This document shows, piece after piece, positions 9,351-31,408 of a stretch of 64,000 nt of DNA; the stretch's first letter is position 1; each line of letters starts with the position of its first letter. This stretch comes from Gordonia spumicola (GTDB lineage: Bacteria; Actinomycetota; Actinomycetes; Mycobacteriales; Mycobacteriaceae). The stretch spans positions 558,001 through 622,000 of the forward strand of contig NZ_BJOV01000003.1 of NCBI RefSeq assembly GCF_009932475.1. Direction: 5' to 3'. The position numbers and the translations under genes were made by a program. The notes under the pieces were generated by a model. That model saw only the letters and a program-made list of their open reading frames with translations. It ran no database searches and was not told where the DNA came from.

Positions 9351-10643
9351 CTAGTGGAACTGGCCCTCTTCGGTCGAGCCCTTGAGAGCTGCGGTCGAGG
9401 TGTTGGGATCGACGGTCGTGGCGATCTTGTCGAAGTAGCCCGCGCCGACCTCACGCTGGTGCTTGGTGGCGGTGTAGCCGCGCTCCTCGGCAGCGAACTC
9501 GCGCTCCTGCAGGTCGACGTATGCCGACATCTGGTTGCGGGCGTAGCCGTGAGCCAGGTCGAACATCGAGTAGTTGAGGGCGTGGAAGCCGGCCAGCGTG
9601 ATGAACTGGAAGGTGAAGCCCATCGCGCCGAGCTCGTTCTGGAACTTGGCGATGGTGTCGTCGTCCAGGTGCTGCTTCCAGTTGAAGGAAGGCGAGCAGT
9701 TGTACGAGAGGAGCTGGTCCGGGAACTCGGCCTTGACGGCCTCGGCGAACTGCTTGGCGAGTGCCAGGTCGGGCTTGCCGGTCTCCATCCAGATCATGTC
9801 CGCGTACGGCGCGTAGGCCTTGGCGCGGGCGATGCAGGGCTCGATGCCGTTCTTGATGCCGTAGAAGCCTTCGGCGGTGCGGGTGCCGTCGAGGAACGGA
9901 CGGTCGCGCTCGTCGACGTCCGAGGTCAGCAGCGTGGCGGCCTCAGCGTCGGTGCGGGCGATGACGACGGTGGGGGTGTTCGCGACGTCGGCGGCGAGGC
10001 GAGCCGAGGTCAGCGTGCGGATGTGCTGCTGGGTGGGGATGAGCACCTTGCCGCCGAGGTGGCCGCACTTCTTCTCCGAGGCGAGCTGGTCTTCCCAGTG
10101 GGTGCCCGCGGCGCCGGCCGAGATCATGGCCTTCTGCAGCTCGTAGACGTTGAGGGCGCCGCCGAAGCCGGCTTCGCCGTCGGCGACGATCGGGACGACC
10201 CAGTTGTCGACGGAGTTGTCACCCTCGACAGCGGCGATCTCGTCGGCGCGCAGCATCGCGTTGTTGATGCGACGGACGACGGCCGGAACCGAGTTGGCCG
10301 GGTACAGCGACTGGTCGGGGTAGGTGTGGCCCGCGAGGTTCGCGTCGCCTGCGACCTGCCAGCCCGACAGGTAGATGGCCTTGAGGCCCGCGCGGACCTG
10401 CTGGACGGCCATGTTGCCGGTCAGGGCACCGAGGGCGTTGATGTAGCTGCCGTCACCCTTGGTGACGCCTTCCCACAGGATCTCGGCACCGCGGCGGGCG
10501 AGGGTGTTCTCCTCGACGACCGAACCCTGCAGCTGCACGACCTGCTCTGCGGTGTAGTCACGGGTGATGCCTTCCCAGCGCGGGTTGGTGTCCCAATCCT
10601 GCTGGATCTCGGCGGCGGTACGCGGCTTTCCGACGTTGCTCAT
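9351..10643 (-). CDS. aceA: Isocitrate lyase
   Basis: The 430-residue enzyme cleaves isocitrate into glyoxylate and succinate for growth on acetate and fatty acids. The catalytic signature KKCGHLGG lies near residue 190. [10 protein letters not shown] is near 310-320, and the N-terminus [17 protein letters not shown] is typical of actinobacterial Icl1. The gene has a long upstream region with RamB-like motifs. With fadB2, ramB and hbhA nearby, the locus is geared to lipid carbon use. Confidence 0.97.
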
Positions 10644-17406: not shown

Positions 17407-17430
17407 TTAACTGAGCCGCCAGTCAGTTAT
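17407..17430. promoter_or_regulatory. TetR-type operator A upstream of the acyl-CoA synthetase operon
   Basis: Read in reverse, the core is TGACTGGCGGCTCAGTTAA. It lies 35-58 bp upstream of the first gene of the operon and matches 21 of 24 positions of the amine-oxidase site at 24678-24701. It is a likely binding site for the TetR protein encoded at 22309-22908. Confidence 0.65.
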
Positions 17431-17464
17431 CTGGCTCTCCCCGAACCAGTGAGGTGCATCACCC

Positions 17465-19507
17465 ATGAACAGCCCAGTCCAGACCTCCCTCCCCACCGGA
17501 CTGTCCGTGTTCAGCACTCCCCGCTCGGTCGCCGTGGTCGGCGCGTCGTCGAACCGCACCAAGTGGGGCTACTGGCTGGCGGCCGGAGCCATCGCGGGCG
17601 CCGGCCGGCGTGACGTCCACCTGGTCAACGCGCGCGGCGGAGACATCCTCGGCCACGCGTGCGTCACCTCCCTCGCCGAGCTCGACGAGGCCCCCGAACT
17701 CGTCGCCCTGTGCGTCCCCGGACCGATGGTCGGCGCCGTCGTCGACGAGGCCCTCGCCATGGGAACCCGCGGTTTCCTCGGCATCACCGCGGGCATCGAG
17801 GACGAGCCGCTGATCGCGGAGCGCATCCGCGCTGCCGGGGCCCGCCTCGTCGGAGCGAACAGCCTCGGCATCTACGACGCCGCAGGCGAGCTCGACCTGA
17901 GCTGGGGCAACTTCACGCCGGGTCCGATGGCGATCATCTCCCAGTCCGGTCAGCTCGGCAGCGAACTCGCCCGCTTCGGCCAGCACAACGGCATCGGCGT
18001 CTCCCGGTTCGTGTCGATCGGCAACCAGACCGACGTGACCGCGGCCGAACTCCTCGCCGATCTCGTCGACCACGAGGCCACCCGCGTCGTCGTCGTCTAC
18101 CTGGAGTCGTTCGCGGGCGGAGCCGAACTCTTCGACGCCGTCGCCGCACTGCGCGCCGCGGGCAAACCCGTCATCCTGCTGACCGTCGGCGCGAGCGCCG
18201 CGGGCAGCCGCCTCGCCCGGTCGCACACCGGTTCGCTCACCGCTCCCGTCGACATCGTCGACGCGGCGTGCCGCGCCGCCGGAGTGCTGCGCGCCCAGTC
18301 GCCCGGCGAGGTGATCGACGTGGCCCGCAGCGTGATCGCGGGCGCGGCGCCCGCCGGTCGTCGCACGGTGATCGTCGGCGACAGCGGCGGTCAGTGCGGC
18401 ATCGCCGCCGACCAAGCGGCCGCCCACGGACTGTCGGTCCCCGCCCTCGGCTCCGACGCCGACGCCGCGCTGACCGCGCTCCTGCCCGCGGGCGCGGCGA
18501 CGTCCAACCCGGTGGACCTCGCCGGAGCTGGCGAGGCCGACCTCGCCAACTACGTCAACGCCGTCGCGCTGGCGCTTGCCGACCCTGACGTCGACTCCGC
18601 CGTCCTGACCGGCTACTTCGGCTGCTACGGCGCCGACAACCCGGCGCTGATGGACGACGAACTGGCCCTCGCCCAGCGTCTCGCCGATGCCGCCCGCGCG
18701 GCAGGCAAGCCCCTGTACGTCCATTCGATGGAGGCGACCGGCCCCGTCGCCGACGCGCTCTGGGCCGCGGGCGTCCCTACCTTCGGCACCGTCGAACCGC
18801 TGCTGCGCGCCCTCTCCGGGACGGCCGTGTACTCGCTCCCAGCGCGTGACGTCACGATCGGGTCCGTCGTCGGCGACGCCCCGACCGACGGGTACTGGAA
18901 CGCCCGCGCGCTCCTGCTCGACCGGGGAGTGGCGTTCCCCGCGGCCGCCGTCGTGACCAGTGTCGACGAGGCCGTCGCCGCCGCGGCCGAGCTCACCGCG
19001 CCACTGGTCCTCAAGGCCGCGTGGCTCGAGCACAAGAGCGAGGTCGGCGGCGTGAAGGTCGGACTGTCCGGCGAGGACGTCGCGGCCGTCTTCGCCGACA
19101 TGCACGGACGGCTCGGCGACGGCGACTACGTCCTCGAGGAGATGGACACCCGCCCGGACGGCGTCGAAGTCCTCATCGGCTGCCAGCGCCATCCGGACCT
19201 CGGCGTCACGGTGACCGTCGGGACCGGCGGCGTCGCGACCGAGGTGTACGCCGACGTCGTGCTCGAATCGGCTCCGGTCGACGCCGCGACCGCCGCCGAC
19301 ATGATCTCGCGGCTCAAGGCGCACAAGCTCCTCGCCGGTTGGCGGGGCAAGCCGGCGACCGACGTCGCCGCCCTCGCCGACGTCGTCGCCGCAGTGTCCC
19401 GGCTGGCCGCCTCCGACTCCCGGATCTCCGAGATCGAACTGAACCCGGTCCGCGTGGCCCCCGGCGGCGTCGTCGCCCTCGACGCGCTCATCGTCGCCGA
19501 CCGCTGA
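17465..19507 (+). CDS. Acyl/acetate-CoA ligase (ADP-forming), fused alpha-beta subunits
   Basis: The 680-residue enzyme makes acyl-CoA from a carboxylic acid, CoA and ATP with release of ADP. A CoA-binding Rossmann domain comes first (VAVVGASSN near 22-30). The succinyl-CoA-ligase flavodoxin-like domains follow, with the phospho-His region ARSHTGSL near 251-258. The ATP-grasp domain fills the C-terminus (about 470-680, VLKAAWLEHKSEVGGVKVGL and ELNPVRV). Length and order match single-chain NDP-forming acetyl-CoA synthetases. It is the first gene of an operon with aldehyde dehydrogenase and acyl-CoA dehydrogenase, so its acid substrate probably comes from the aldehyde dehydrogenase. Confidence 0.92.
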   Translation: MNSPVQTSLPTGLSVFSTPRSVAVVGASSNRTKWGYWLAAGAIAGAGRRDVHLVNARGGDILGHACVTSLAELDEAPELVALCVPGPMVGAVVDEALAMGTRGFLGITAGIEDEPLIAERIRAAGARLVGANSLGIYDAAGELDLSWGNFTPGPMAIISQSGQLGSELARFGQHNGIGVSRFVSIGNQTDVTAAELLADLVDHEATRVVVVYLESFAGGAELFDAVAALRAAGKPVILLTVGASAAGSRLARSHTGSLTAPVDIVDAACRAAGVLRAQSPGEVIDVARSVIAGAAPAGRRTVIVGDSGGQCGIAADQAAAHGLSVPALGSDADAALTALLPAGAATSNPVDLAGAGEADLANYVNAVALALADPDVDSAVLTGYFGCYGADNPALMDDELALAQRLADAARAAGKPLYVHSMEATGPVADALWAAGVPTFGTVEPLLRALSGTAVYSLPARDVTIGSVVGDAPTDGYWNARALLLDRGVAFPAAAVVTSVDEAVAAAAELTAPLVLKAAWLEHKSEVGGVKVGLSGEDVAAVFADMHGRLGDGDYVLEEMDTRPDGVEVLIGCQRHPDLGVTVTVGTGGVATEVYADVVLESAPVDAATAADMISRLKAHKLLAGWRGKPATDVAALADVVAAVSRLAASDSRISEIELNPVRVAPGGVVALDALIVADR

Positions 19508-19540
19508 CCCGAACCCCACCCGACCAGGAAGGACCAGCAC

Positions 19541-20977
19541 ATGACCGCACCAACGACCGTCGCCCTGTGGCAGCGCGACGCGGCGCTCATCGACGGCGCG
19601 TGGCGCACCGCCGCCACGACAGTCGACGTCCACGACCCGGCGACCGAAGCGAGCATCGGCACGTCCGCATCGTGCGGCGTCGCCGACGTCGACGCCGCCG
19701 TGTCCGCCGCCCGCACCGCGCTCCCGGCGTGGAGCACCGCATCGCCGGAGGCACGCGCCGACGTCCTCGACGCCCTGGTCGCCGAGCTGCGCAACCGGCG
19801 CGACGACCTCGTCGCCGCGACCGTCGCCGAGGTCGGGGCCCCGCTCGGCGTTGCCCGCGAGGCCCACATCGACCTCGGCATCGAGATCATGGCCGATTTC
19901 GCCGAGATGGCCCGCACCTTCGAATGGCAGACGACGATCGGCAACTCGCGGATCCTGCGTCGCGCCGCGGGCGTCGTCGCCGCGATCACGCCGTGGAACT
20001 ACCCCTTCTACCAGCTCGTCGCCAAGGCCGGAGCCGCCCTCGCCGCGGGCTGCCCGATCGTCGTCAAGCCCGCGGAGCTGACTCCGCTGTCGACCTACCT
20101 GTTCGCCGACGCGGCCATCGCTGCGGGCGTACCCGCGGGCGTGTTCTCGCTGGTCCCCGGCGCGGGACGCGTCGTCGGCTCCGCCCTCGCCGAACACTCG
20201 GGCGTCGACGTCGTCTCCTTCACCGGTTCCACCGGTGTCGGCAAGACGATCGCCGTCGCGGCCGCGCAGAACATCAAACGCGCGTGCCTCGAACTCGGCG
20301 GCAAGTCGGCCAGCGTGATCCTCGACGACGCCGACCTGGACGAGGCGGTCCGGACGAGCGTCGCCGCGGGCCTGTTGAACTCCGGGCAGACGTGCAGCGC
20401 CTGGTCCCGGCTGCTGGTCCCCCGCGGCCGGTACGAGGACGCCCTGACGATCGCCGCGGACGCCGTCGCGGCCATGCGCGTCGGCGACCCCACCGACGAG
20501 GCCACCGACCTCGGACCCGTCATCTCCGCCGCCCAGCGCGCGTCGATCGTCTCCGCGATCGACGGCGCCCTCGCCCGAGGCGCACGCCTCGTGTGCGGCG
20601 GCCCCGATCCCCTGCCGGAGTTCCCGGGAGGACACTTCGTCGCACCCACCGTCCTCGCCGACCTGCAGGCCGACGACCCGGCGGTACGCGACGAGATCTT
20701 CGGTCCGGTCATCGTCGTGCTCCCGCACGACGGCGACGACCACGCCGTGCAACTCGCCAACGACAGCGAGTACGGCCTCGCCGGGGCCGTCTGGTCCGGC
20801 GACACCGACCGCGCGATCGCCGTGGCGTCGCGCATCGACACCGGCCAGGTGGACGTGAACGGCGCGCCGTTCAATCCGCGTGCGCCGTTCGGCGGCTGGA
20901 AGGCCTCCGGACTCGGCCGAGAACTCGGACCCGTCGGACTCGAAGAGTTCACCGAGATCACCAGCATCCAGTTGTAG
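19541..20977 (+). CDS. NAD(P)-dependent aldehyde dehydrogenase
   Basis: The 478-residue aldehyde dehydrogenase carries ITPWNYPF near 147-154, the nucleotide-loop FTGSTGVGK near 227-235, catalytic Glu in ELGGKS near 250-255, and catalytic Cys in GQTCSAW near 282-288. The ATG follows an AGGAAGGA ribosome-binding site. In the operon it would oxidise an aldehyde made by the amine oxidase (24718) or the 2-oxoacid decarboxylase (26170) to the acid used by the upstream CoA ligase. The specific aldehyde is unknown. Confidence 0.94.
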   Translation: MTAPTTVALWQRDAALIDGAWRTAATTVDVHDPATEASIGTSASCGVADVDAAVSAARTALPAWSTASPEARADVLDALVAELRNRRDDLVAATVAEVGAPLGVAREAHIDLGIEIMADFAEMARTFEWQTTIGNSRILRRAAGVVAAITPWNYPFYQLVAKAGAALAAGCPIVVKPAELTPLSTYLFADAAIAAGVPAGVFSLVPGAGRVVGSALAEHSGVDVVSFTGSTGVGKTIAVAAAQNIKRACLELGGKSASVILDDADLDEAVRTSVAAGLLNSGQTCSAWSRLLVPRGRYEDALTIAADAVAAMRVGDPTDEATDLGPVISAAQRASIVSAIDGALARGARLVCGGPDPLPEFPGGHFVAPTVLADLQADDPAVRDEIFGPVIVVLPHDGDDHAVQLANDSEYGLAGAVWSGDTDRAIAVASRIDTGQVDVNGAPFNPRAPFGGWKASGLGRELGPVGLEEFTEITSIQL

Positions 20978-21011
20978 CCCCTCCCCCCGAGCACCTCCAG
21001 AAAGGCATCCC

Positions 21012-22172
21012 ATGAGCACCGTGAACATCCCCGCATTCCCGTTGACCGACGAGCAGAAGCAGATCATCGAGCTCTGCCACGACTTCGCCGAGAAGGAGAT
21101 CCGCCCGCGCGGCCGCGAGGTCGACGAGGCCGACACCGTGACCCCGGTCGACATCTTCCGCAAGGCCGCACAGGTCGGCATCGCCGACTTCATGATCCCC
21201 ACCGAGTACGGCGGCGGCGGCATGACCGACGTCTTCACCCAGTGCCTCGTGCAAGAGGAGCTGTGCTGGGGCGATCCCGGCATCGGCAACCTCGTCTGCT
21301 CGAACGGCTTCTTCTCCGACCCGCTGATGGTCCTCGGCACCGAGGAGCAGAAGCGCAAGTGGCTGCCGCCGACCACCGGCCCCGACGCGATCATGACCTC
21401 GCTCGCCACCACCGAGCCCGGTTCGGGTTCGGATGCGGCGTCGATCATCACCACCGCGACCAAGGTCGACGGCGGCTACACGATCAACGGCCAGAAGGCA
21501 TGGATCTCCAACGCGGGCGCGGCCGAGCAGTACGTCGTCTTCGCCAAGACCGACAAGACCAAGCGGTCGGCCGGCGTCACCGCCTTCATGTTCAAGAAGG
21601 ACACCCCCGGCGTCTCGTTCGGCGAGCCGATGAAGAAGATGGGTCAGCGCGCCATCGTCTGCCGCGAGGTGTTCTTCGACGACATGTTCGTGCCCGACGA
21701 GGACCGTCTCGGCGAGGAGGGCCAGGGCTTCTACGGCCTGATGGGCACGTTCGACATCTCGCGAGTGGTGCTCGGCGCCGCCGCCGTCGGCGCCGCCCGC
21801 GCCGCGTACGAGTACGCCCTGAACTACGCCCGCGAGCGCAAGCAGTTCGGCGTCCCGATCATCGAGCACCAGGCCGTCGCATTCCGCCTGGCCGAGATGG
21901 CCACCCGCATCGAGTCGGCCCGCCTGCTGGTCCACCACGCGGCCCGCGTCATCGACAGCGGCCAGCGCGCCACCGGCCTCGCCGCCATGTGCAAGCTGCA
22001 GGCGTCCGAGACCGCCATGTTCGTCACCCACGCGGCCGTCCAGACGCTCGGCGGCTGGGGCTACTCCCGCGAGTTCCCCGTCGAGCAGTGGATGCGCGAC
22101 GTGAAGCTCGAGGAGATCGAAGAGGGCACCTCGGACATCATGAAGCTCGTCATCTCGCGCAACCTGGACTGA
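21012..22172 (+). CDS. Acyl-CoA dehydrogenase
   Basis: This 386-residue FAD enzyme makes 2,3-enoyl-CoA. It has the ATTEPGSGSDAASI and GQKAWISNAG FAD/CoA-binding motifs and the C-terminal helical domain with RKQFGVPIIEHQAVAFRLAEM. The catalytic Glu is in LEEIEEGTSDI near residue 370. The ATG at 21012 gives the usual family length; a longer frame upstream overlaps the aldehyde dehydrogenase and is not needed. It is the third gene of the operon. The preferred chain length or branching cannot be inferred. Confidence 0.94.
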   Translation: MSTVNIPAFPLTDEQKQIIELCHDFAEKEIRPRGREVDEADTVTPVDIFRKAAQVGIADFMIPTEYGGGGMTDVFTQCLVQEELCWGDPGIGNLVCSNGFFSDPLMVLGTEEQKRKWLPPTTGPDAIMTSLATTEPGSGSDAASIITTATKVDGGYTINGQKAWISNAGAAEQYVVFAKTDKTKRSAGVTAFMFKKDTPGVSFGEPMKKMGQRAIVCREVFFDDMFVPDEDRLGEEGQGFYGLMGTFDISRVVLGAAAVGAARAAYEYALNYARERKQFGVPIIEHQAVAFRLAEMATRIESARLLVHHAARVIDSGQRATGLAAMCKLQASETAMFVTHAAVQTLGGWGYSREFPVEQWMRDVKLEEIEEGTSDIMKLVISRNLD

Positions 22173-22187
22173 CAGTCCCACACCATG

Positions 22188-22219
22188 ACCGCGGTGTCGC
22201 CTTCGGGCGGCACCGCGGT
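22188..22219 (+). terminator. Terminator after the acyl-CoA dehydrogenase operon
   Basis: A 14-bp stem (ACCGCGGTGTCGCC pairing with GGCGGCACCGCGGT) with a TTCG tetraloop region lies 15 bp after the stop. Confidence 0.75.
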
Positions 22220-22308
22220 TCTTCGCTGCCGCCGTCACGTTCGACGAGGACAGTCCAGACGCCGGTCGTTTAGTGTCGAGGGGCGTCCGTACTACAAGGG
22301 AGTCCACA

Positions 22309-22908
22309 GTGCCACGACCGAGCGTGGAAGCCGAGCGCCGCGAGCAGATCCTGTCCGCGGCGTGCGAGGTGATCGCCGAACGCGGGATGCAGTCGTTGCG
22401 ACTGTCCGACGTCGCTGCGCGGGCCGGAGTCTCGTCTGGCACCGTCCACTACTACTTCGACACGAAGCGCGACGTGATCAATGCGGCCTTCGAACTAAAC
22501 TATGAGCGGTCCATCGAAGGACGTCGTGCGATGCTCGCGGGCGACGAGACCGATTCCCTCGCGACGCTGCGGGCCCTCGCACACAGCAATCTGCCCGTCA
22601 CCGAGGCGTCGATCCGAGCCTGGCGGGTGTGGGCCGAACTGTGGGCCGAGGGCATGCGCGACGAGACGTTGCAGGACATCAACTCGCGCTTGTACGGCCA
22701 GTGGCGCGAACTCGTCCACGACCTCGTCGTCCACGGCCAGGAACGCGGCCAGATCGTCGACGGCGACGCCGCCGTCTTCGCCGACGTCCTCGTCTCCATG
22801 ATCGACGGCATGAGCATCCAGAACCTCATGCACTCCCCCGAGATGCCCGTCGACCGGATGATCTCCCGTATCGACTCCTACCTGGACGCCATCGCGGTCC
22901 GCACGTGA
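22309..22908 (+). CDS. TetR family regulator of the amine-catabolism genes
   Basis: The 199-residue protein has a TetR helix-turn-helix at about 10-56 (RLSDVAARAGVSSGTVHYYFDTK) and a TetR_C-type ligand domain. The GTG start at 22309 is preceded by AAGGGAG, the best ribosome-binding site. It sits between the two groups of genes that share the TGACTGGCG...CAGTTAA operator, and there is no copy of that operator before its own start. Its stop codon lies inside the following terminator stem. It is probably the repressor that senses the amine, aldehyde or acyl-CoA. Confidence 0.88.
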   Translation: MPRPSVEAERREQILSAACEVIAERGMQSLRLSDVAARAGVSSGTVHYYFDTKRDVINAAFELNYERSIEGRRAMLAGDETDSLATLRALAHSNLPVTEASIRAWRVWAELWAEGMRDETLQDINSRLYGQWRELVHDLVVHGQERGQIVDGDAAVFADVLVSMIDGMSIQNLMHSPEMPVDRMISRIDSYLDAIAVRT

Positions 22909-22941
22909 AACCACCGCGTCACCGACGCGGTGGTTTCACGT
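22903..22941. terminator. Bidirectional terminator
   Basis: A perfect 18-bp stem (ACGTGAAACCACCGCGTC and its complement) with a 3-nt loop separates the convergent TetR and NCS1 transporter genes. The TetR stop codon is inside the stem. Confidence 0.85.
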
Positions 22942-22948
22942 CTGAGGC

Positions 22949-24427
22949 TCAGACGGCCGACTGCAGATCTCGCGACCTTCCCTCGTACAAGCCGAGACCG
23001 GACGGCATCACGACAAGTCGAGTCAGCACATAGTGGGCGAAGCCCGCCACGAGGAACGACGGCACCGACGCCGTCGTGTACTTGAAGATCCCCGCGGGCT
23101 CGTAGGTGATCGGGTTCAGAAGCAGGCAATACACGACGACCCCGAGCCCGACCGACACGAACGCGCAGATGTTGACTCCTCGCCAGTAGCCGTAGCCCGA
23201 GTGCGCTCCGTCGGTGTATAGCTGGCGCACGTCGAGCACGCGGCGGCGCAGTATGAAGTAGTCGACGATCTGCACACCGCACAGGGGTGCGAGGAAGAGC
23301 GCTCCCCACGAAAGGAACTGGCTGTAGTTGTCGTACACGGCTTGCGGAAAGAACACGAGGACCACCGCGGGGCCGAGGATGACGGTGATCAGCGCAGGCC
23401 AGGAGACACCACGAAGGAGGCGACCGCCGCCGCCGCGCAGCGCGACCATCGAGGCGTATCCCTGCGACAGGATCGCGGTGATGTTGGCGAGCGCGACGAC
23501 GAACAGCGCCAACACGCCGAACGTGCTGCCGATGAGCGGGATCATCCACTCGGTCGGGTCGTCGAGCTTGAGGGTCAGCGCCGCGAACACACCGACGACC
23601 GCGGCGATCACCGACGCACCGAAGATGCCGAGGAAGTTCGGCCAGAACGCCGACCGCGACGTGCGGGTCAGTCGGGCGAGGTTGCCCATGTTGGGCCACC
23701 ATGCGAATCCGCCCGCGATGTTGATCTCGATGGCGAGCATGAAGCTGACGTGCGAGTCGTCGGCGGGCTCCAGCGGCGCGAGCGAGGCGATGTGGTCCCA
23801 GGTGTCGCGGCGCAGCACCATCACGAGGATCGCGATGATGATGAGGATGAGCAGCGGGGCGATGACCTGGCAGACCCGTTCCACCGAGACCGGACCGCGC
23901 GACAGGATGAGCCACGAGACGACGACCGCGCCCACCGCGATGATCGACAGGGCCGTGGTCGAGTTCGACAGCTGCCACCCGAACATGTGGCTCAGCGCGT
24001 TCACCATGCCGTGACCGAGCATGATGGCGAGCACCGCCGACCAAGCCGCCGCGAGCAACGTCGACATGAACACCATGACCACTCTCGCCCCGCCGTTGCC
24101 GAAGACGCTTCGGAGCCCGATGAACTGTTCCACGCCGTACTTCGCCGAGGGCAGACACGGCGCGAGGGCCACGAAGAACACCGCGACGCCGTATCCGATC
24201 GCGATCGTCGCGATCGCCTGCTTGGCGCCGACGTAGTAGGCGACCGCCGATCCCTGGAGGAACGCCCAGGTCGCGACCGCCAGTCCGATGTTCACGACCG
24301 AGTAGTCCCAGAATCCCCAGATCCGTTCGCGACGGGTGAGAGGGAGTTCGTTCAACGTCGCGTCGTCGACCGTGGACGGGGCCTCGGCGACGATGGTCTC
24401 GCCGGTGACGGCCTTTCGGGAGCGCAT
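22949..24427 (-). CDS. NCS1-family cytosine/purine-permease-like transporter
   Basis: The 492-residue membrane protein has about 12 transmembrane segments and matches NCS1 transporters. It has an N-terminal NELPLTRRERIWGFWDYSVVNIGLAVATW block, an AGGFAWWPNMGNLARLTR motif near the centre, and a C-terminal YFILRRR. The family imports nucleobases, hydantoins, vitamins or similar small N-compounds with Na+ or H+. Here it is divergent from a flavin amine oxidase and shares its operator, so an amine substrate is likely. The ATG at 24427 overlaps the upstream small gene's stop (TGATG); a slightly earlier GTG is less likely. Confidence 0.88.
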   Translation of the reverse strand: MRSRKAVTGETIVAEAPSTVDDATLNELPLTRRERIWGFWDYSVVNIGLAVATWAFLQGSAVAYYVGAKQAIATIAIGYGVAVFFVALAPCLPSAKYGVEQFIGLRSVFGNGGARVVMVFMSTLLAAAWSAVLAIMLGHGMVNALSHMFGWQLSNSTTALSIIAVGAVVVSWLILSRGPVSVERVCQVIAPLLILIIIAILVMVLRRDTWDHIASLAPLEPADDSHVSFMLAIEINIAGGFAWWPNMGNLARLTRTSRSAFWPNFLGIFGASVIAAVVGVFAALTLKLDDPTEWMIPLIGSTFGVLALFVVALANITAILSQGYASMVALRGGGGRLLRGVSWPALITVILGPAVVLVFFPQAVYDNYSQFLSWGALFLAPLCGVQIVDYFILRRRVLDVRQLYTDGAHSGYGYWRGVNICAFVSVGLGVVVYCLLLNPITYEPAGIFKYTTASVPSFLVAGFAHYVLTRLVVMPSGLGLYEGRSRDLQSAV

Positions 24428-24591
24428 CACAGGCACCACCAGAGGAGCAGTGCGGATCCGACGACGAGTCCCACGACGGCGAGGACGATGTCCCGCGCAG
24501 GCAGATCGGCCAGGATCATCCCGTTGTCGTCTGGGGATTCCAGGAGTTGGAGGCGTCGTTCCAACTCCGTGTCGAACGCGTCGGTTGCCAT
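24427..24591 (-). CDS. 54-residue single-span membrane protein, coupled to the NCS1 transporter
   Basis: The small gene begins MATDAFDTELERRLQLLES, with an acidic/amphipathic N-terminal half. One transmembrane helix (about 34-53, IVLAVVGLVVGSALLLWW) ends two residues before the stop. AAAGGT lies just before the ATG. Its stop overlaps the transporter's ATG (TGATG), which strongly indicates translational coupling. It is downstream of operator C. By analogy with small partner subunits of other secondary transporters it may assist the NCS1 permease. I know of no named family for it. Confidence 0.75.
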   Translation of the reverse strand: MATDAFDTELERRLQLLESPDDNGMILADLPARDIVLAVVGLVVGSALLLWWCL

Positions 24592-24598
24592 GTGTGAC

Positions 24599-24622
24599 CT
24601 TTCTGACTGACGAACCAGTTAA
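24599..24622. promoter_or_regulatory. TetR-type operator C (NCS1 side)
   Basis: The core TGACTGACGAACCAGTTAA ends 8-31 bp from the start codon of the small membrane protein, so repressor binding would block its transcript. It matches operators A and B in the TGACTG-CG-N3-CAGTTAA pattern. Confidence 0.6.
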
Positions 24623-24677
24623 GTGAGAATGTGTGGTCCCTCACATGCTTGTCAAGACTGAGTCCAGATCACTTCTC

Positions 24678-24701
24678 ATAATTGACTGGCGAATCAGTTA
24701 A
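24678..24701. promoter_or_regulatory. TetR-type operator B (amine oxidase side)
   Basis: The core TGACTGGCGAATCAGTTAA lies 17-40 bp upstream of the chosen amine oxidase ATG. It matches 21 of 24 positions of operator A at 17407. The divergent 24592-24717 region thus holds two copies, one per transcript. Confidence 0.65.
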
Positions 24702-24717
24702 TGTCACGATGGGATCC

Positions 24718-26103
24718 ATGTCACATTCCGAGAACGTCTCCGAGACGTCACCCGACCGAGTCGACGTGGTCGTCGTCGGCGCAGGCTACGCAGGACTGTC
24801 CGCTGCCCTCGCACTCGTCGACGCCGGCGTGAACGCGGTGGTACTCGAAGGCGCCGACCGCGTCGGCGGCCGCACGCTCTCCGAGGTCCGCCCGACCGGC
24901 GTGACCGTCGATCACGGCGGACAGTGGGTGGGCCCCACCCAGACTCGGCTGCTCGGCCTCGCCGAGCGATTCGGCGTCCCGACCTTCCCCACGTACTGGG
25001 CAGGCGACCATCTGGAGATCTGGGCCGACAGCAGCATCAATCGATATCGCGGGACAGGACCCGACGAGGGCGACGGTCTCCACGAGTACGAGGCCCACAT
25101 CGAGGTGCTCGACGCGCTCGCCGCCACCATCGACCTGCACGATCCCAGCGGGTCGCCCGACGCCGCCGCATTGGACGACGAGACGGTCGCCTCCTACCTG
25201 GTCCGCACGGTCCCCTCCGAGGGTGCGCGACGCCGATTCGCGCTGGCGGTCGAAGGCGTCTGGGCATGCGAACCCGCCCACTTGTCGATGCTGCACTTCC
25301 TCTTCTACATCGCCGCCGCGGGAAGCTTCGACGAGCTCATGGAGACCGACGGCTGCGCCCAGGACTCCCGTTTCGTCGGCGGCGCACAGGCACCCGCACT
25401 CGCCGTGGCAGCCCACCTCGGGGACCGTGTCCGACTCGGGTGGCGCGCCGACCGAGTCGTCGTGACCGACGACGGTGTGCTCGTCGAGACTCCCGTCGGA
25501 ACCGTCCGCGCCGACCGTGCGATCCTCACGCTTCCGCCGCAGGCCGCGGGCGCCGTCCGGTTCGATCCCCCGCTTCCCCCGGCGAAAGCCCGATTCGTCG
25601 ACCGCAGCGTGATGGGAGACGTCGCCAAGGTGCACGTCACCTACTCGACCCCGTTCTGGCGAGGCGAGGGACTCAGCGGCCAGGCGACCGTGTACGACGA
25701 GCGTGAGACGGGCGTCGTCTTCGACAACTCCCCCGACGACGCGAGCCGGGGCGTCCTGGTGGCATTCGTCTACGGCCGCCGCGTGGATCCGTGGGCCCGG
25801 CTCGAAGCCGATGAGCGCCGCGCCGCGATCATGACGACACTCGTCGACCTCTTCGGCGAACGCGCGGCCGATCCCGTCGACTACGTGGAGAAGATCTGGT
25901 CGACCGATCCCTGGATCCGCGGTGCCTATGCGGCCAACCCCACGCCCGGGGCCTGGTCGGCATACGGAGAGCAGGGCTGGCGCATCCCCACCGGCCGCCT
26001 CCATTGGGCCGGCTCGGAGACGTCGAGCGTCTGGAACGGCTACATCGACGGCGCCATCGCGTCCGGCCGACGCGCCGCACAGGAGATTCTCGACCTGCGC
26101 TGA
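24718..26103 (+). CDS. Flavin-dependent amine oxidase (putrescine/monoamine oxidase type)
   Basis: The 461-residue enzyme oxidises an amine to an aldehyde with release of ammonia and H2O2. The FAD-binding motif VVVVGAGYAGLSAAL is at about 17-31. GGRTLSEVRPTG is near 50-61, GGQWVGPTQ near 66-74, and the C-terminal FAD region WAGSETSSVWNGYIDGAIASG near 430-450. No cysteine for covalent FAD is evident near the C-terminus. The ATG at 24718, preceded by GGGA, was chosen; an ATG three codons earlier is possible, and anything further upstream would run into operator B. Substrate could be putrescine, a monoamine or another short amine. It is expected to act with the divergent NCS1 importer. Confidence 0.9.
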   Translation: MSHSENVSETSPDRVDVVVVGAGYAGLSAALALVDAGVNAVVLEGADRVGGRTLSEVRPTGVTVDHGGQWVGPTQTRLLGLAERFGVPTFPTYWAGDHLEIWADSSINRYRGTGPDEGDGLHEYEAHIEVLDALAATIDLHDPSGSPDAAALDDETVASYLVRTVPSEGARRRFALAVEGVWACEPAHLSMLHFLFYIAAAGSFDELMETDGCAQDSRFVGGAQAPALAVAAHLGDRVRLGWRADRVVVTDDGVLVETPVGTVRADRAILTLPPQAAGAVRFDPPLPPAKARFVDRSVMGDVAKVHVTYSTPFWRGEGLSGQATVYDERETGVVFDNSPDDASRGVLVAFVYGRRVDPWARLEADERRAAIMTTLVDLFGERAADPVDYVEKIWSTDPWIRGAYAANPTPGAWSAYGEQGWRIPTGRLHWAGSETSSVWNGYIDGAIASGRRAAQEILDLR

Positions 26104-26169: not shown

Positions 26170-27768
26170 TCAGACGGCGGGTTCGCGCACGTAGATCAGA
26201 GTCGGACGATCGGCGGCAAACGCCTCCCGAACGGCCGGGCCGACCTCCGCGTACGACGCGGCGTCGACGCCGTGGCAGCCCAGTGCCCGAGCGACACCGG
26301 CGAAGTCCGGTGTCGGAAGGTCCACCGCGATCGGCGTCTCGTCCCGGTCGACCATCTCGTTGCGGATCTCGCCGTAGCCGCCGTTGTCGACGACGACGAC
26401 GGGCAGTGCGATGCCGGCCTGCGCCGCGGTCGCGAGCTCCGGGAGCGAGAACATCACACCTCCGTCACCGATGACCGCGACCACCTGGCGGCCGGGCGAC
26501 GACACCATCGCGCCGATGCCTGCGGGCAGCGAGTACCCGAGGGTGCCGAGTCCGGACGGGTACATGAACGACCGCGGTGCGTAGCGCGGGAGGTTGCCCA
26601 TCAGGCCGTAGTAGCACGACATCGTCTGGTCGGCGACGATCACGGCGTCGTCGTCGAGGACCTCGGCGAGCGATTCGGCGAGTCCGACGTACGCCGCACC
26701 GATGGTGCGTGCATCTTCGGTGAGCTTGGGACGCCACGCGGCCGCGCGATCGGCGCCGCTGTCGGCCCGACCGGTCACCGGGGCGAGCCGCTCGGTGAGG
26801 TCGGCGAGGACGGCCGCGGCGTCGCCGACCACTGCAACCTCGGGGATCGCGTTGGTCGCGACCGCGAGCGGATCGATGTCGATGCGCACCAGGCGGGTCG
26901 CCGGCATCGGGCCCCACCACCAGTCGGCGGGCGCGAGTTCCGTGCCGACGGCGACGACGACGTCGCAGTCGCGGACCAGATCGAGGGTCACCTCGAGCGG
27001 CACGCCCGCGCCCAGCGCCAGCGGGTGGTCCTCGCGGACGACGGCTTTGCCGTTGGCGGTCGTGACGACCGGTGCGTCGAACTTCTCGGCGAACGCCAAC
27101 ACCTCCGCGGTGGCGCGGCTCGCGCCGCCGCCCGCGACGATCAACGGGCGCTGCGCGGACGCGATCACCTCGGCGGCAGCGGCGACGACCGACTCCGCCG
27201 GGACGATCGACGGCACGGTGACCGGAGCCTCGGCGACGACCTGCGCCTGCGCTTCGAGCAGGTCGAGCGGGATCTCCAGGTACGCCGGACGCGGGCGTCC
27301 GGTGGTCATCGCGGCGAAGCACTGCGCGACGGCGTGCGGGATCTCCGCGACACTGGTCACTCGCTGTGCATGGGCGACGACTGCCGACATCGCATCGATC
27401 TGGCTGCGCACCTCGTGCAGCAGACCGTTGTATCCGCTCGGATGATCCGACGGCATGCCGGGCGCGATGAACAGGACCGGAACCGAGTCCGAGTACGCCT
27501 GCGCCGCCGACGCCGCGGCATTGAGGATCGCCGGACCGGTCGTCGTCACGACGACGCCGGGACGGCCGGACAGCCGCGCGTAGCCGTCGGCCGCGTAGCC
27601 CGCACCCTGCTCGTGGCGGGGAGTGACGTGGCTGATCGACGACGCCTCGAGCGCGGCGTAGATCGCGAGATTGTGCGTGCCGGGGATGCCGAAGACGGTG
27701 TCGACGCCGTGAGCGACCAGCGCGTCGACGACGGCGCCGCCTCCCGAGCGGAGAACACTAGCTGACAT
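26170..27768 (-). CDS. Thiamine-diphosphate-dependent 2-oxoacid decarboxylase (AruI/IlvB family)
   Basis: The 532-residue ThDP enzyme has the catalytic glutamate in TPRHEQGAGYAADGYARLSG (Glu near 53). The ThDP-Mg motif begins GDGGVMFSLPEL near 437 and ends with DNGGYGEIRNEM near 463. The middle domain is CoA/FAD-like. Sequence near the glutamate resembles 2-ketoarginine decarboxylase AruI and related acetolactate-synthase-like enzymes. It starts 44 bp after the dehydrogenase stop, in one operon, so the substrate is probably the 2-oxoacid made there. The ATG at 27768 is preferred over a 37-codon extension. Confidence 0.87.
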   Translation of the reverse strand: MSASVLRSGGGAVVDALVAHGVDTVFGIPGTHNLAIYAALEASSISHVTPRHEQGAGYAADGYARLSGRPGVVVTTTGPAILNAAASAAQAYSDSVPVLFIAPGMPSDHPSGYNGLLHEVRSQIDAMSAVVAHAQRVTSVAEIPHAVAQCFAAMTTGRPRPAYLEIPLDLLEAQAQVVAEAPVTVPSIVPAESVVAAAAEVIASAQRPLIVAGGGASRATAEVLAFAEKFDAPVVTTANGKAVVREDHPLALGAGVPLEVTLDLVRDCDVVVAVGTELAPADWWWGPMPATRLVRIDIDPLAVATNAIPEVAVVGDAAAVLADLTERLAPVTGRADSGADRAAAWRPKLTEDARTIGAAYVGLAESLAEVLDDDAVIVADQTMSCYYGLMGNLPRYAPRSFMYPSGLGTLGYSLPAGIGAMVSSPGRQVVAVIGDGGVMFSLPELATAAQAGIALPVVVVDNGGYGEIRNEMVDRDETPIAVDLPTPDFAGVARALGCHGVDAASYAEVGPAVREAFAADRPTLIYVREPAV

Positions 27769-27811
27769 GGATATCTGAACTCTCTGTTGAAGTCGAGACG
27801 GCGAAGCCGAC

Positions 27812-29035
27812 TCAGTAGATCGGGAACTCGTCGGAGATCGCGGCCAGCTTGCGCGATGCCATCTCGAACGCGGCGGCACGCAGGGAGACGCCCTCGGCCT
27901 CTGCGATGTCGAACATCTCGTCGCTCAGGGCGGTGATGCGGCTGTTGATCTTGGCGAACGACTGCTCGGGAGTGCCGTCGACGTCACCGAAGAAGACCCA
28001 CCACCACCAGGCGTTGGTCGCCGAGTTGGCGACGAAGTCGGGCGAGACCTCGATACCGCGTGCGGCGAGCAGCTCCTCGGCCTCCGGGGTGACCGGCATA
28101 TTGGCCGCTTCGACCACCAGGCGAGCGCGAACCTGATCCTGGTTGCCGTCGTTGATGCAGTACGAGATGGCGGCGGGCACGAGCACGTCGGCCTCGAGCG
28201 AGAGCCAGTCCGACGAGTCCAGGCAGCGGTCGCCGTCGCGGAGCTTAGTGCGGTCGACGTTGCCCTTGGCGCTGCGCGTGAGGAGCAGTTCTTCGACGTC
28301 GAGGCCGGCCTCGTTGTAGACGACGCCTTCGACGTCGACGATGCCGACGACGCGGACGCCGACCTCGGCGAGGTAGCGAGCCGTCGCGCCGCCCATCGAG
28401 CCGAAACCCTGGATCACGGCGGTGGTGTCGGCCGGCGCCATCTCGCGACGGGCCATCGCCGCGAGGGCGGCCTTGGCGACACCGTAGCCGCCGACCAGCT
28501 CGTCGAGGCTCACGCCGTCGACAACACTGTTGAACGCGGTGGACATCCGGCCCCGGGCGGCGTCCGGGTCGTCGACGACCCGCTCGGCCGCCTGGATGGA
28601 GCTGCGGAGTCCGACCTCGGGAAGCAGACGGTCGATGGTGGTCTGCTGGACGCCGAAGTCTTCACCCATGGTCCACCGGGTGTCGATGATCGGCGCGGTG
28701 GCCTGCAGGAACCGGCGGAGGACACCGTCGGCCTCGGGGCTGTACGGATCGAAGTCGATTCCGCCCTTGGCGCCGCCGAGCGGAACGTAGCGTGCGCCGG
28801 GCTCGTAGTGGACGCCCTCCTTGAGCGTCATGCCGCGGGCCAGGCCGCGGACCTCGTCGAGGGTGCAGCCGGCGCGCATGCGCAGACCGCCGGAGGAGAC
28901 ACCGCGGACCAGTCGATCGATGACGACGTAGCCGGTGGCGTCGCTCTCGGTGTCGTGCCAGACGATCTCGAAGAAGGCGTTGTCGTCGCGAGCGCCCGCG
29001 GAGGCGTCGATCGCGTTGGGGAGTGTCAGGGACAT
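27812..29035 (-). CDS. Glu/Leu/Phe/Val-type amino-acid dehydrogenase
   Basis: The 407-residue NAD(P)-dependent enzyme oxidatively deaminates an amino acid. The substrate-binding lysines lie in GMTLKEGVHYEPGARYVP and the LGGAKGGIDFDP motif, near residues 68-95. The Rossmann motif VIQGFGSMGGATARYLAEVG is near 210-230. It could be a glutamate dehydrogenase, but the coupling to a 2-oxoacid decarboxylase suggests another amino acid. The ATG follows AGGAGCG. Operator D is 55-75 bp upstream. Confidence 0.88.
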   Translation of the reverse strand: MSLTLPNAIDASAGARDDNAFFEIVWHDTESDATGYVVIDRLVRGVSSGGLRMRAGCTLDEVRGLARGMTLKEGVHYEPGARYVPLGGAKGGIDFDPYSPEADGVLRRFLQATAPIIDTRWTMGEDFGVQQTTIDRLLPEVGLRSSIQAAERVVDDPDAARGRMSTAFNSVVDGVSLDELVGGYGVAKAALAAMARREMAPADTTAVIQGFGSMGGATARYLAEVGVRVVGIVDVEGVVYNEAGLDVEELLLTRSAKGNVDRTKLRDGDRCLDSSDWLSLEADVLVPAAISYCINDGNQDQVRARLVVEAANMPVTPEAEELLAARGIEVSPDFVANSATNAWWWWVFFGDVDGTPEQSFAKINSRITALSDEMFDIAEAEGVSLRAAAFEMASRKLAAISDEFPIY

Positions 29036-29089
29036 GGTTCGCTCCTGCGGTAGTGGTGCGTCGATCGGGGTGCGACGCGGAACAATGCT

Positions 29090-29110
29090 TGACTGAGTAC
29101 TTAGTCAGTA
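29090..29110. promoter_or_regulatory. TetR-type operator D upstream of the dehydrogenase
   Basis: TGACTGAGTACTTAGTCAGT is an almost perfect palindrome (TGACTNAGTACTNAGTCA). It lies between the TetR 3' end and the dehydrogenase start. An 18-bp copy with one central difference lies at 29847. Confidence 0.7.
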
Positions 29111-29157
29111 TGGCACCGATCACACGGGAGGGCAACCCTCGAGGGCGATCACATCGA

Positions 29158-29751
29158 TCAGATCCCGAGTTCGCGCTCCAGCGCCAGCTGCGTCCAGTCC
29201 CGGATCTGCTCCATCGAGACGACGTCGTCGAACACCACGTGCTGGACCGCGAGACCGTCGAGCATCGATGTGAGGCGCCAGGTGGCCGCCACCGGATCGG
29301 GGCAGGTGAACACGCCCTGCGCGACGCCGTCGTCGATGATGCCGATGAGCACCTCGCGCCAGCCCTCGTCGAGGTCGTGGACCACTCCGCGCAGCGTGGG
29401 GTCGCGCAGGCTCGCCGACCACGCCTGCACCCACAGTCGCCAGCCGAACTCCGAGCCGGACGGACCGTACTCGATGAGCATCGTCCACAGCCGTTCGGTG
29501 ACGTCCGACGACGAGGCGGCCAGCGCGGCGTCGCGGTGCTCGATGTCGCGGTCGGACGCGTATCGCAGAGCCTCGACGATCAGCGTCTCGAGGTTGTCGA
29601 AGTGATAGAAGACCAGGCCGACACTGACCCCGACACGCTTGGCGACGTCCGCACCGCGCACGCGGTCGATGCCGCCCTCTTTGATCATGTCGAGGGTCGC
29701 CCTGAGAATCCCCTCACGCCGATCGGCGGAGTCCTTCGTCACCCGAGTCAC
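29158..29751 (-). CDS. TetR family regulator of the amino-acid catabolism genes
   Basis: The 197-residue protein has a helix-turn-helix at about 12-56 (GADVAKRVGVSVGLVFYHFDNL) and a TetR_C ligand domain. The GTG start at 29751 gives the usual length; the frame extends 56 codons upstream into the promoter region and was trimmed. It lies between two copies of the TGACTGAGTAC-N-TAGTCA palindrome, so it probably represses the divergent permease/oxidase genes and the dehydrogenase/decarboxylase operon. Confidence 0.87.
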   Translation of the reverse strand: MTRVTKDSADRREGILRATLDMIKEGGIDRVRGADVAKRVGVSVGLVFYHFDNLETLIVEALRYASDRDIEHRDAALAASSSDVTERLWTMLIEYGPSGSEFGWRLWVQAWSASLRDPTLRGVVHDLDEGWREVLIGIIDDGVAQGVFTCPDPVAATWRLTSMLDGLAVQHVVFDDVVSMEQIRDWTQLALERELGI

Positions 29752-29846
29752 CAGGGCAATGCTACGGGTCCGATATGCGTCGTAGCCACCTGTGATCCGT
29801 GCGGGGCCTTGACAACACTGTGATGGCCGTCGCATTCTGATTGCGC

Positions 29847-29864
29847 TGACTGAGTACATAGTCA
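29847..29864. promoter_or_regulatory. TetR-type operator E upstream of the permease
   Basis: TGACTGAGTACATAGTCA is the second copy of the palindrome at 29090. It lies 72-89 bp upstream of the permease start, in the divergent TetR-permease region. Confidence 0.7.
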
Positions 29865-29935
29865 GCAGATCGTGGACAGTCCGACGCGCAGGGGGTTGCG
29901 ACCGGGCGTCCGCGCACACACTTCAGGAGCACACC

Positions 29936-31408
29936 GTGTCAGTAGCCCCGACCACCGGTTCCGAGGAACCGGTGACCTCCCAGACAAGCGGAACGGAAAC
30001 GCCGTTCTACACTCCCGAGGGGCCAGCCCTCAAACGCGTCATGAAGAGCCGCCACCTGTTCATGATCACCCTCGCGGGTGTCATCGGCACCGGCCTGTTC
30101 CTGGGCACCGGACAGGTGATCGGCTCCGCGGGCCCCGGCGGAACCATCGTGGCCTACCTCGTCGGCGGCGTCCTGCTGTACCTGACGATGGTCTGCCTCG
30201 GCGAGATGTCGGTCGTCATGCCCGTCAGCGGCTCGTTCCAGGCGCACGCCACCAAGTACATCGGGCCGGCGACCGGATTCACCATCGGCTGGGTCTACTG
30301 GATCAGCTGGGCGTCGTTCATCGGCCTCGAATTCACCGCTGCCGGCATCACCATGAAGTTCTGGTTCCCCGACACCCCGACATGGGTGTGGTCGGCGATC
30401 TTCATCGCCGTCCTCTTCCTCGTGAACTGCTTCACCGCCCGCTCGTTCGCCGAGACCGAGTACGCGCTCGCCGCGGTCAAGGTCCTCGCCGTCGGCGTGT
30501 TCATCGTGCTCGGCGTCCTCGCCATCACCGGCGTCATCAAGATGGACGGCATCGAGGCTCCCGGCCTCTCGAACTTCACCTCGAACGGCGGCTTCTTCCC
30601 CGTCGGCTTCGGCGCCGTCTTCGCCGCCATGATGACGGTCGTCTACACGTTCATGGGCTCCGAGGTGATGGGCGTCGTGGCAGGCGAGACGGAGAATCCC
30701 CGCAAGGCCGTCCCGAAGGCCGTCCGCACCATCGTGTTCCGCCTCGTATTCCTGTACCTGGGCTCCATCCTCATCCTGATCGCGCTGATCCCGTGGGAGC
30801 AGCTCGGCCTCGACGAGAGCCCGTTCGTCACCGTCTTCAAGGCGATCGGCATCCCCTACGCCGCGGGCATCATGAACTTCGTCATCCTGGTCGCCATCCT
30901 GTCGGTCGGCAACACCGGCCTGTACATGTGCACCCGCATCCTGTGGTCGCTCGCGCAGGAGAAGGCCGCTCCCCGCGTCTTCGGTGTCACCACCAAGCGA
31001 GGCATTCCGATCTGGGGCCTGCTGTTCACCCTCGTCTTCGGCCTGCTGTCCCTGATGACCGAGTTCGTCGCCGCGGACACCGTCTTCGTCTTCCTGATCT
31101 CGGTCAGCGGCGTCGGCGGAGCCCTCTGCTGGATGACGATCGCGCTGTCCCAGTACCGCTTCCGTCGGCAGTACGTCAGGGGCGGCGGCAAGGTGAAAGA
31201 CCTGCCCTACGCGGCGCCGATGTTCCCGCTGACCCCGATACTCGTGATCCTCATGAACTGCGTCGTGTTCGTCTCGATGGCCTTCGACGACACTCAGCGA
31301 TTGTCGCTGATCCTCGGCCTCGGCTGCGTGCCGGTGTTCTACGCGATCTACCAGTGGGGCATCAAGCCGCGGATCGCCGCCGTCGCGACGCCGGATCCCG
31401 CCGCATGA
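29936..31408 (+). CDS. Amino-acid permease (APC superfamily, AAT family)
   Basis: The 490-residue transporter has 12 predicted membrane spans. The N-terminal family motif is MKSRHLFMITLAGVIGTGLFLGTG (about 36-59, split by the first span). The GEMSVVMPVSGSFQAHATKYIGPATGF loop and the SEVMGVVAGETENPRKAVPKAV motif are both typical of bacterial amino-acid permeases (GABA, lysine, aromatic or proline type). The start is a GTG. It overlaps the next gene's ATG by 4 nt (ATGA). The gene is under operator E. Confidence 0.93.
   Translation: MSVAPTTGSEEPVTSQTSGTETPFYTPEGPALKRVMKSRHLFMITLAGVIGTGLFLGTGQVIGSAGPGGTIVAYLVGGVLLYLTMVCLGEMSVVMPVSGSFQAHATKYIGPATGFTIGWVYWISWASFIGLEFTAAGITMKFWFPDTPTWVWSAIFIAVLFLVNCFTARSFAETEYALAAVKVLAVGVFIVLGVLAITGVIKMDGIEAPGLSNFTSNGGFFPVGFGAVFAAMMTVVYTFMGSEVMGVVAGETENPRKAVPKAVRTIVFRLVFLYLGSILILIALIPWEQLGLDESPFVTVFKAIGIPYAAGIMNFVILVAILSVGNTGLYMCTRILWSLAQEKAAPRVFGVTTKRGIPIWGLLFTLVFGLLSLMTEFVAADTVFVFLISVSGVGGALCWMTIALSQYRFRRQYVRGGGKVKDLPYAAPMFPLTPILVILMNCVVFVSMAFDDTQRLSLILGLGCVPVFYAIYQWGIKPRIAAVATPDPAA

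Follow-up and report, generated by a model that had tools for sequence, protein, structure and literature searches.

Two gene sets under one type of palindrome in Gordonia spumicola: a tentative CoA-dependent route for an amino acid and its amine, possibly arginine and agmatine

Introduction

Many organisms can draw nitrogen from arginine and agmatine, both of which are common sources of it. In the parts available, PMC2242806, PMC7268258, PMC5619798, PMC10989774 and PMC9397018 cover the classic routes for arginine, the metabolism of polyamines and the gbu cluster. In the arginine transaminase or dehydrogenase (oxidase) pathway of Pseudomonas, Sinorhizobium and cyanobacteria, the available sections describe a ureohydrolase that splits 4-guanidinobutyrate to urea and gamma-aminobutyrate (GABA) (PMC2242806, PMC7268258). 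The gbu cluster for gamma-butyrobetaine, as far as its description is available, includes acyl-coenzyme A (CoA) transferases and a betaine/carnitine/choline transporter (PMC10989774). The present work concerns a 64-kb stretch of the genome of Gordonia spumicola (the window, to whose positions all coordinates refer), of which mainly the part from about 9 to 33 kb was studied, with the open reading frame 32790-38021 excluded. Two gene sets in this part may channel an amino acid (probably arginine) and the corresponding amine (probably agmatine) into a common CoA sequence, a reading that rests on sequence comparison and to which we give slightly less than an even chance.

Among the literature matches listed, with subscription journals mostly outside their scope, no catabolic route via 4-guanidinobutyryl-CoA was recognised. 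Where 4-guanidinobutyrate appeared among these matches, the title or abstract dealt with polyketides, antibiotic production vectors or an alga-fungus association.

Operator palindromes

The pattern TGACTGRCGNNYCAGTTAA has three perfect matches in the window, at 17407-17425 (minus strand), 24604-24622 (plus) and 24683-24701 (plus), one ahead of each of three transcription units. Only 0.15 matches were expected, and three were reached in 0 of 100 shuffles. The window holds no further match at up to three mismatches, and the genome as a whole (4,886,396 bases) has no other exact match. Three more genome places match with two or three mismatches, which is chance level, because a reversed control pattern gives 19 at equal tolerance. 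An earlier, sequence-only reading of this DNA had placed one operator before three units, encoding an acyl-CoA synthetase, an aldehyde dehydrogenase, an acyl-CoA dehydrogenase, an NCS1 permease, a small protein and an amine oxidase, with a TetR gene among them; the three sites are borne out by these counts, and the gene identities agree with the family scans. The extent of the system was drawn too narrowly, since the three units stand but two more palindromes were overlooked, together with the second half of the system (26170-32643), which lies directly beyond the amine oxidase.

The two downstream palindromes (operators 4 and 5, Table 1) agree with the other three in half-sites and in their length of 18 bases. 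The centres differ, being GRCGnny in the first three sites and GAGTAC in the sites at 29090 and 29847. The pattern TRACT-N8-AGTYA occurs at seven places in the 4.9-Mb genome, five of them inside 12.5 kb of the window. Its reversed control likewise finds seven genome places, so that single sites elsewhere mean little, while five in 12.5 kb do count. Two perfect palindromes elsewhere in the genome (C1:300926 and C3:177227) were set aside as single sites at chance level. Both TetR proteins are predicted to act on the palindromes, and position suggests which of them goes with which site.

A weight matrix was built on the 15 sites in three Gordonia loci and used to score the remaining 45 fetched loci (numbered L below). 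All 22 other loci that carry both synthetase and acyl-CoA dehydrogenase reached a best score of at least 17.3, compared with 3 of the 23 loci left (L109, L125 and L126), all three with dehydrogenase and decarboxylase. Sites in the 22 loci stand beside or at the start of a cluster gene, its importer or its TetR gene. These loci are not all independent, L037/L038, L044/L045 and L147-L149 being near relatives. In ninety Markov-sampled random sequences the 95th percentile was 13.8 and the highest score 21.1, so that the weaker palindrome sites are not secure one by one. More palindrome-like sites occur on two Streptomyces plasmids, at 20133 in L105 (score 20.7) and at 22611 in L106 (18.8). They stand before genes whose products are an oligopeptide-type binding protein, an amidohydrolase close to Xaa-Pro dipeptidase (below the cut-off) and a flavoprotein, and which may share the regulon.

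Entry modules around one core in other actinobacteria

Loci were fetched around relatives of the amine oxidase, the amino acid dehydrogenase and the decarboxylase and were compared by tblastn. The counts depend on these three query enzymes, absence refers to the stretch fetched, and G. malaquae is counted once. The core, that is, synthetase and acyl-CoA dehydrogenase together, was found in 25 genomes. The amine oxidase is present in 13 of these stretches. Dehydrogenase and decarboxylase accompany the core in 16 (including L154, whose dehydrogenase is cut by the stretch end), and both modules in four. The oxidase side stands alone in 8 of the 25 and the amino acid side alone in 12, and L051 has the oxidase with the decarboxylase only. 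By query, the core was recovered in 10 of 13 oxidase loci (L036-L045; L046 is without it, and L047 and L048 are short contigs), in both plasmid loci and in 8 of 13 decarboxylase loci.

One row in L124 comprises the permease, the D-amino acid dehydrogenase, TetR 2, the dehydrogenase, the decarboxylase, the synthetase, a short-chain dehydrogenase/reductase (SDR), the aldehyde dehydrogenase and the acyl-CoA dehydrogenase; a full row is also found in L146. Dehydrogenase and decarboxylase share a row with the core, under palindromes, in L124, L146 and L043, which suggests that the entry from the amine and the one from the amino acid meet at a single aldehyde. In L051 the decarboxylase is joined to the synthetase row. 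That entry modules are swapped around a single core, with a single palindrome, is the chief reason to propose that decarboxylation of the amino acid would give the amine. The single operator type and the order of oxidase, aldehyde dehydrogenase, CoA ligase and acyl-CoA dehydrogenase had been proposed before, and genes and palindrome are indeed conserved in other actinobacteria. As an amine-to-enoyl-CoA route the proposal keeps its amine entry and its enzyme order, but the system is not purely one for amines, since the amino acid entry carries the palindrome too.

In other genera the clusters contain an additional reductase, whose family varies: an SDR (nearest to 2,4-dienoyl-CoA reductase, though under the cut-off), a FadH-like protein or a nitronate monooxygenase/FabK-like protein. 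A reductive step may therefore be filled by unrelated families in different clusters. In a turn of beta-oxidation the SDR might act as 3-hydroxyacyl-CoA dehydrogenase, a role that the FadH-like and FabK-like reductases do not fit. The fetched Gordonia stretches hold no close relative of any of the three (FadH-like matches reach 28% only), and the window genome has no close orthologue of the L124 SDR, the best of 59 matches being at 39%. The FadH-like flavoprotein lies at 6691 in L051, which also has an SDR, and nitronate monooxygenase/FabK-like proteins lie at 2530 in L042, 3922 in L044 and 3690 in L045. A flavin mononucleotide oxidoreductase of the old yellow enzyme family is encoded in the window at 39950-41401, about 10 kb from the cluster, and matches the FadH protein of L051 at 28%.

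Proposed route and its enzymes

In the proposed route, L-arginine would be converted to 2-ketoarginine by the dehydrogenase, which resembles glutamate dehydrogenase (GDH), and D-arginine would reach the same 2-oxo acid by the DadA-like flavoprotein. The thiamine-diphosphate decarboxylase would then form 4-guanidinobutanal, which the amine oxidase would also produce from imported agmatine. The aldehyde dehydrogenase would yield 4-guanidinobutyrate, the ADP-forming synthetase 4-guanidinobutyryl-CoA, and the acyl-CoA dehydrogenase 4-guanidinobut-2-enoyl-CoA, which would pass to beta-oxidation or lose guanidine. Each TetR protein would repress one gene set via the palindrome until an intermediate binds.

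CoA-binding, ligase and ATP-grasp domains are all present in the synthetase by family scan, and its relatives in the PDB are 3-hydroxypropionate-- and 4-hydroxybutyrate--CoA ligases and dimethylsulfoniopropionate (DMSP) lyase. All NCBIfam matches of the aldehyde dehydrogenase fall below the cut-off, the Rv0768 family being best (419.8 of 775) and aminobutyraldehyde dehydrogenase next (405.8 of 615); the same holds for the best match of the acyl-CoA dehydrogenase, acryloyl-CoA reductase (340.8 of 640). Glu370-Glu371 of the latter enzyme align with Tyr-Glu of medium-chain acyl-CoA dehydrogenase. The catalytic Glu of the EGT motif, Glu371, is kept in all 25 cluster acyl-CoA dehydrogenases, and so is the Glu-Glu pair (25/25, matches above 250 bits). 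None of 20 other acyl-CoA dehydrogenase paralogues of this genome has Glu at place 370; these are the ones aligned there, several of them loosely near the catalytic residue, out of 29 fetched from 36 other genome matches. The residue at place 370, Tyr in the medium-chain enzyme, presumably lines the acyl pocket.

The Amino_oxidase domain spans the full length of the amine oxidase (PF01593, 240.9 bits, residues 37-470), whose start is more likely the ATG at 24709 or 24718. Glu is found in LMET in 12 of 12 cluster amine oxidases besides that of the window, against 1 of 14 other oxidases (3 of 14 if Asp is counted as well), and we take this Glu to be near the gate of MAO-B. Val345 of the window enzyme aligns with Glu324 of putrescine oxidase, a residue that we take to hold the distal amine. 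Putrescine, one of the candidate amines of the sequence-only reading, which singled out none of them, consequently fits poorly. Val is also found at this place in 12 other cluster oxidases and in the genome paralogue L035; the idea that this paralogue is the real putrescine oxidase was rejected for that reason. Agmatine, which was absent from the earlier list, would fit the neighbouring genes best. In a search of plasmids the amine oxidase has no match at E 1e-100. The NCS1 protein, which has no PDB sequence relative at E 0.001, is predicted from gene position alone to import the amine, and relatives of the 54-residue protein encoded ahead of it occur in L036 and L049 (85%) and in L038 (47%).

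On the amino acid side, seven of the eight decarboxylase relatives tested score 505-547 against NF005712 (5-guanidino-2-oxopentanoate decarboxylase), over its cut-off of 500, and the eighth, in L124, scores 492.8. Two Streptomyces plasmid records annotate the decarboxylase under that name. In the dehydrogenase, Ser is aligned where GDH carries a Lys that presumably binds glutamate, which makes glutamate unlikely as the substrate. The TNAWWWW stretch of the dehydrogenase shows no variation in any of the 33 rows that have letters at this place, inside and outside the cluster. Only general names (glutamate dehydrogenase, Glu/Leu/Phe/Val dehydrogenase) appear for homologues of this enzyme among the 120 matches listed. 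The DadA homologue adjoins the amino acid permease in all five loci holding that permease.

Clusters of relatives contribute further genes. L148 encodes a dimethylargininase (374.8 against a cut-off of 340) with homologues in L147 and L149-L151. The ATP-binding cassette (ABC) importer beside it is kept in L147-L151; scanned in L147, it matches glutamine importers best and then lysine/arginine/ornithine importers, all below the cut-off. L152 carries a PotABCD-type importer, whose ATPase exceeds the polyamine cut-off (375.5 of 355.6), with homologues in L120. The decarboxylase family name and scores, the dimethylargininase, the importers and the DadA homologue are hints of a guanidino group, and the Glu-Glu of the acyl-CoA dehydrogenase and the LMET Glu of the amine oxidases are hints of a cation.

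No arginase-family ureohydrolase (PF00491) was found in the window genome, nor in G037 or G042, so that none of the three Gordonia genomes with the cluster has one. Transamination, as with GABA, is not open to a guanidino acid, and with arginase-family enzymes not found either, CoA activation makes sense in Gordonia. A wider proposal, which we regard as doubtful, is that actinobacteria would use fatty-acid-like CoA chemistry on arginine and agmatine, with a dedicated acyl-CoA dehydrogenase whose Glu-Glu site would accommodate the cation, conversion of the enoyl-CoA to guanidine or guanidinoacetyl-CoA, replacement of guanidinobutyrase and import of agmatine by an NCS1 protein. If true, the route would assign substrates to a set of enzymes that bear just the names 'acyl-CoA dehydrogenase family protein' or 'acetate--CoA ligase family protein'. 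It would also point to a possible source of free guanidine in cells that can be tested, and suggest a new kind of substrate for NCS1 permeases.

Points against the reading and alternative explanations

Several observations weigh against arginine and agmatine as the shared substrates. The window decarboxylase scores 492.1 bits against NF005712, under the cut-off of 500, and that model is of the 'subfamily' type. The aligned pocket stretches of the dehydrogenase hold no acidic residue, Val at the Glu324 place does not separate the amine oxidase from its genome paralogue, and the scores of the importers of relatives show no specificity for arginine. Among NCBIfam families the amino acid permease matches S-methylmethionine permease best (481 of 716, below the cut-off). 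The part of the window studied yielded no enzyme that would act on the guanidino group. Of 17 searched genomes with all or parts of the system, 13 do have ureohydrolases, so their absence is a Gordonia feature. A guanidine-III riboswitch, found in 6 of 6 genomes searched, was dropped as support, since 50 of 59 genomes in the genus carry it. Three loci (L111, L116 and L123) have dehydrogenase and decarboxylase without the palindrome, with best scores of 7.3, 9.9 and 6.7. Only 2 of 20 dehydrogenase-query loci (L120 and L124) have synthetase and acyl-CoA dehydrogenase nearby, which means that the core follows the oxidase and the decarboxylase closely and the dehydrogenase loosely. Many Streptomyces keep the dehydrogenase with a TetR2-like gene only, and the dehydrogenase, standing mostly alone among its relatives, may have another role.

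Other substrate pairs could use the same two entries. For lysine and cadaverine, or ornithine and putrescine, the thioester would be 5-aminovaleryl-CoA or 4-aminobutyryl-CoA. PotABCD- and amino-acid-type importers suit these cations equally, and the aldehyde dehydrogenase is like aminobutyraldehyde dehydrogenases, below the cut-off. We nevertheless consider such a pair unlikely: omega-amino acids are normally transaminated, as in GABA metabolism, which would make a CoA ligase unnecessary; the Glu324 of putrescine oxidase is absent from the amine oxidase; and the dimethylargininase in relatives points to a guanidino group. That enzyme and the polyamine-type importer of relatives also speak against an aliphatic pair (valine and isobutylamine, or leucine and isoamylamine), in which the acyl-CoA dehydrogenase would be of the isobutyryl- or isovaleryl-CoA type. 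Leucine and phenylalanine dehydrogenases also lack the glutamate-binding Lys, in agreement with the window dehydrogenase, and short- and branched-chain enzymes are among the relatives of the acyl-CoA dehydrogenase. The charged Glu-Glu in 25 of 25 cluster enzymes and the decarboxylase family leave the aliphatic pair quite unlikely. A very unlikely pair is S-methylmethionine with 3-dimethylsulfoniopropylamine, both leading to DMSP aldehyde, DMSP and DMSP-CoA. It agrees with the closest family of the permease, with the relation of the synthetase to DMSP lyase 7cm9 (178 bits) and with acryloyl-CoA reductase as the best match of the acyl-CoA dehydrogenase; these family matches are far below cut-off, 7cm9 is the third PDB match only, and the polyamine-type importer and dimethylargininase of relatives are a misfit.

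The two gene sets could also be neighbouring but independent regulons, with TetR 1 governing an amine pathway and TetR 2 a pathway for an amino acid that has no relation to it. The different site centres, a TetR gene for each set and the presence of one set only in the fetched stretch of many genomes would agree with this arrangement. It is made rather improbable by L124, L146 and L043, which unite dehydrogenase and decarboxylase with the core under palindromes, and by L051, which unites the decarboxylase with the synthetase row.

Features of the locus and further observations

Table 1. Operators and genes of the system, in window positions
Feature	Position	Strand	Basis or remark
Operator 1, palindrome TRACTG-N6-CAGTYA	17408..17425	-	ahead of acyl-CoA synthetase operon
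ADP-forming acyl-CoA synthetase, 680 aa, predicted 4-guanidinobutyrate--CoA ligase	17465..19507	+	Pfam (ATP-grasp_5, Succ_CoA_lig), conserved in relatives
Aldehyde dehydrogenase, 478 aa, predicted 4-guanidinobutanal dehydrogenase	19541..20977	+	family scan
Acyl-CoA dehydrogenase, 386 aa, predicted 4-guanidinobutyryl-CoA dehydrogenase	21012..22172	+	family scan; Glu370-Glu371
TetR regulator 1, BetI-type C-terminal domain	22273..22908, start probably 22309	+	family scan
NCS1 permease, 496 aa, predicted amine importer	22949..24439	-	PF02133 (Transp_cyt_pur), 103 bits
54-residue protein ahead of permease, C-terminal half hydrophobic, probably membrane protein	24427..24591	-	sequence
Operator 2	24604..24621	+	ahead of NCS1 permease unit
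Operator 3	24683..24700	+	ends 8 bases upstream of likely amine oxidase start
Flavin amine oxidase, predicted agmatine oxidase	24709..26103	+	PF01593, 241 bits; PDB monoamine oxidase 8p84, 329 bits
Thiamine-diphosphate 2-oxo acid decarboxylase, predicted 2-ketoarginine decarboxylase	26170..27879	-	start probably downstream of listed GTG
GDH-like amino acid dehydrogenase, 407 aa, predicted L-arginine dehydrogenase	27812..29035	-	family, position, residues
Operator 4, TGACTGAGTACTTAGTCA on plus strand	29090..29107	-	ahead of dehydrogenase/decarboxylase operon
TetR regulator 2	29158..29919, real start probably internal	-	family scan
Operator 5, TGACTGAGTACATAGTCA	29847..29864	+	between TetR 2 and amino acid permease
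Amino acid permease, 490 aa	29936..31408	+	PF00324, 416 bits
Flavin adenine dinucleotide (FAD) D-amino acid dehydrogenase-like protein, 412 aa, predicted D-arginine dehydrogenase	31405..32643	+	174 bits, cut-off 383

Outside the system, the window encodes at 11815-13239 and 9351-10643 a short-chain fatty acyl-CoA regulator (ScfRs) near an isocitrate lyase family gene. The guanidine-III riboswitch of this genome lies at G000:C5:2099603-2099667, and four open reading frames scanned around it gave no NCBIfam match at E 1e-20. The dehydrogenase with a TetR2-like gene, and with no decarboxylase, synthetase or acyl-CoA dehydrogenase in the stretch, is found in L107, L108, L110, L113-L115, L117-L119, L121 and L122. 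In several loci of this kind a metallo-beta-lactamase-fold protein is adjacent (scanned in L113 and L116). These Streptomyces neighbours, the metallo-beta-lactamase-fold protein and a GDSL lipase, gave no substrate hint.

Comparison with known systems

The amine oxidase belongs to the same family as putrescine oxidase (2yg3-2yg7) and monoamine oxidase 8p84, with 258 and 329 bits, respectively; it differs from putrescine oxidase by Val in place of Glu324 and by its genomic company. DauA/DauB of P. aeruginosa differ from the Gordonia pair in their second enzyme, which in Gordonia is of the glutamate dehydrogenase family, to which DauB is not known to belong. Both systems, in so far as DauA/DauB are described in the part of the source available, place an FAD D-amino acid dehydrogenase or a protein like it beside an amino acid dehydrogenase, and in Gordonia the two are predicted to meet at 2-ketoarginine, which would be degraded and not converted to L-arginine (PMC5619798).

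The available description of the gbu cluster names no amine oxidase or 2-oxo acid decarboxylase, unlike the Gordonia cluster (PMC10989774). What the two would share is an acyl-CoA dehydrogenase in a cluster for a 4-substituted cationic butyrate, the CoA-thioester substrate of gbu being suggested by its gene names. The arginine transaminase or dehydrogenase pathway, as far as the sources at hand describe it, leads from 2-ketoarginine to 4-guanidinobutanal or 4-guanidinobutyrate, as the Gordonia route would, and by profile the Gordonia decarboxylase may be of the 5-guanidino-2-oxopentanoate family. The two differ in what follows: no enzyme of the ureohydrolase family was found in the Gordonia genome, which has a CoA ligase and an acyl-CoA dehydrogenase instead. 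If the arginine and agmatine reading is true, the CoA route would add a new branch to the 4-guanidinobutyrate routes, which in the passages available use a ureohydrolase.

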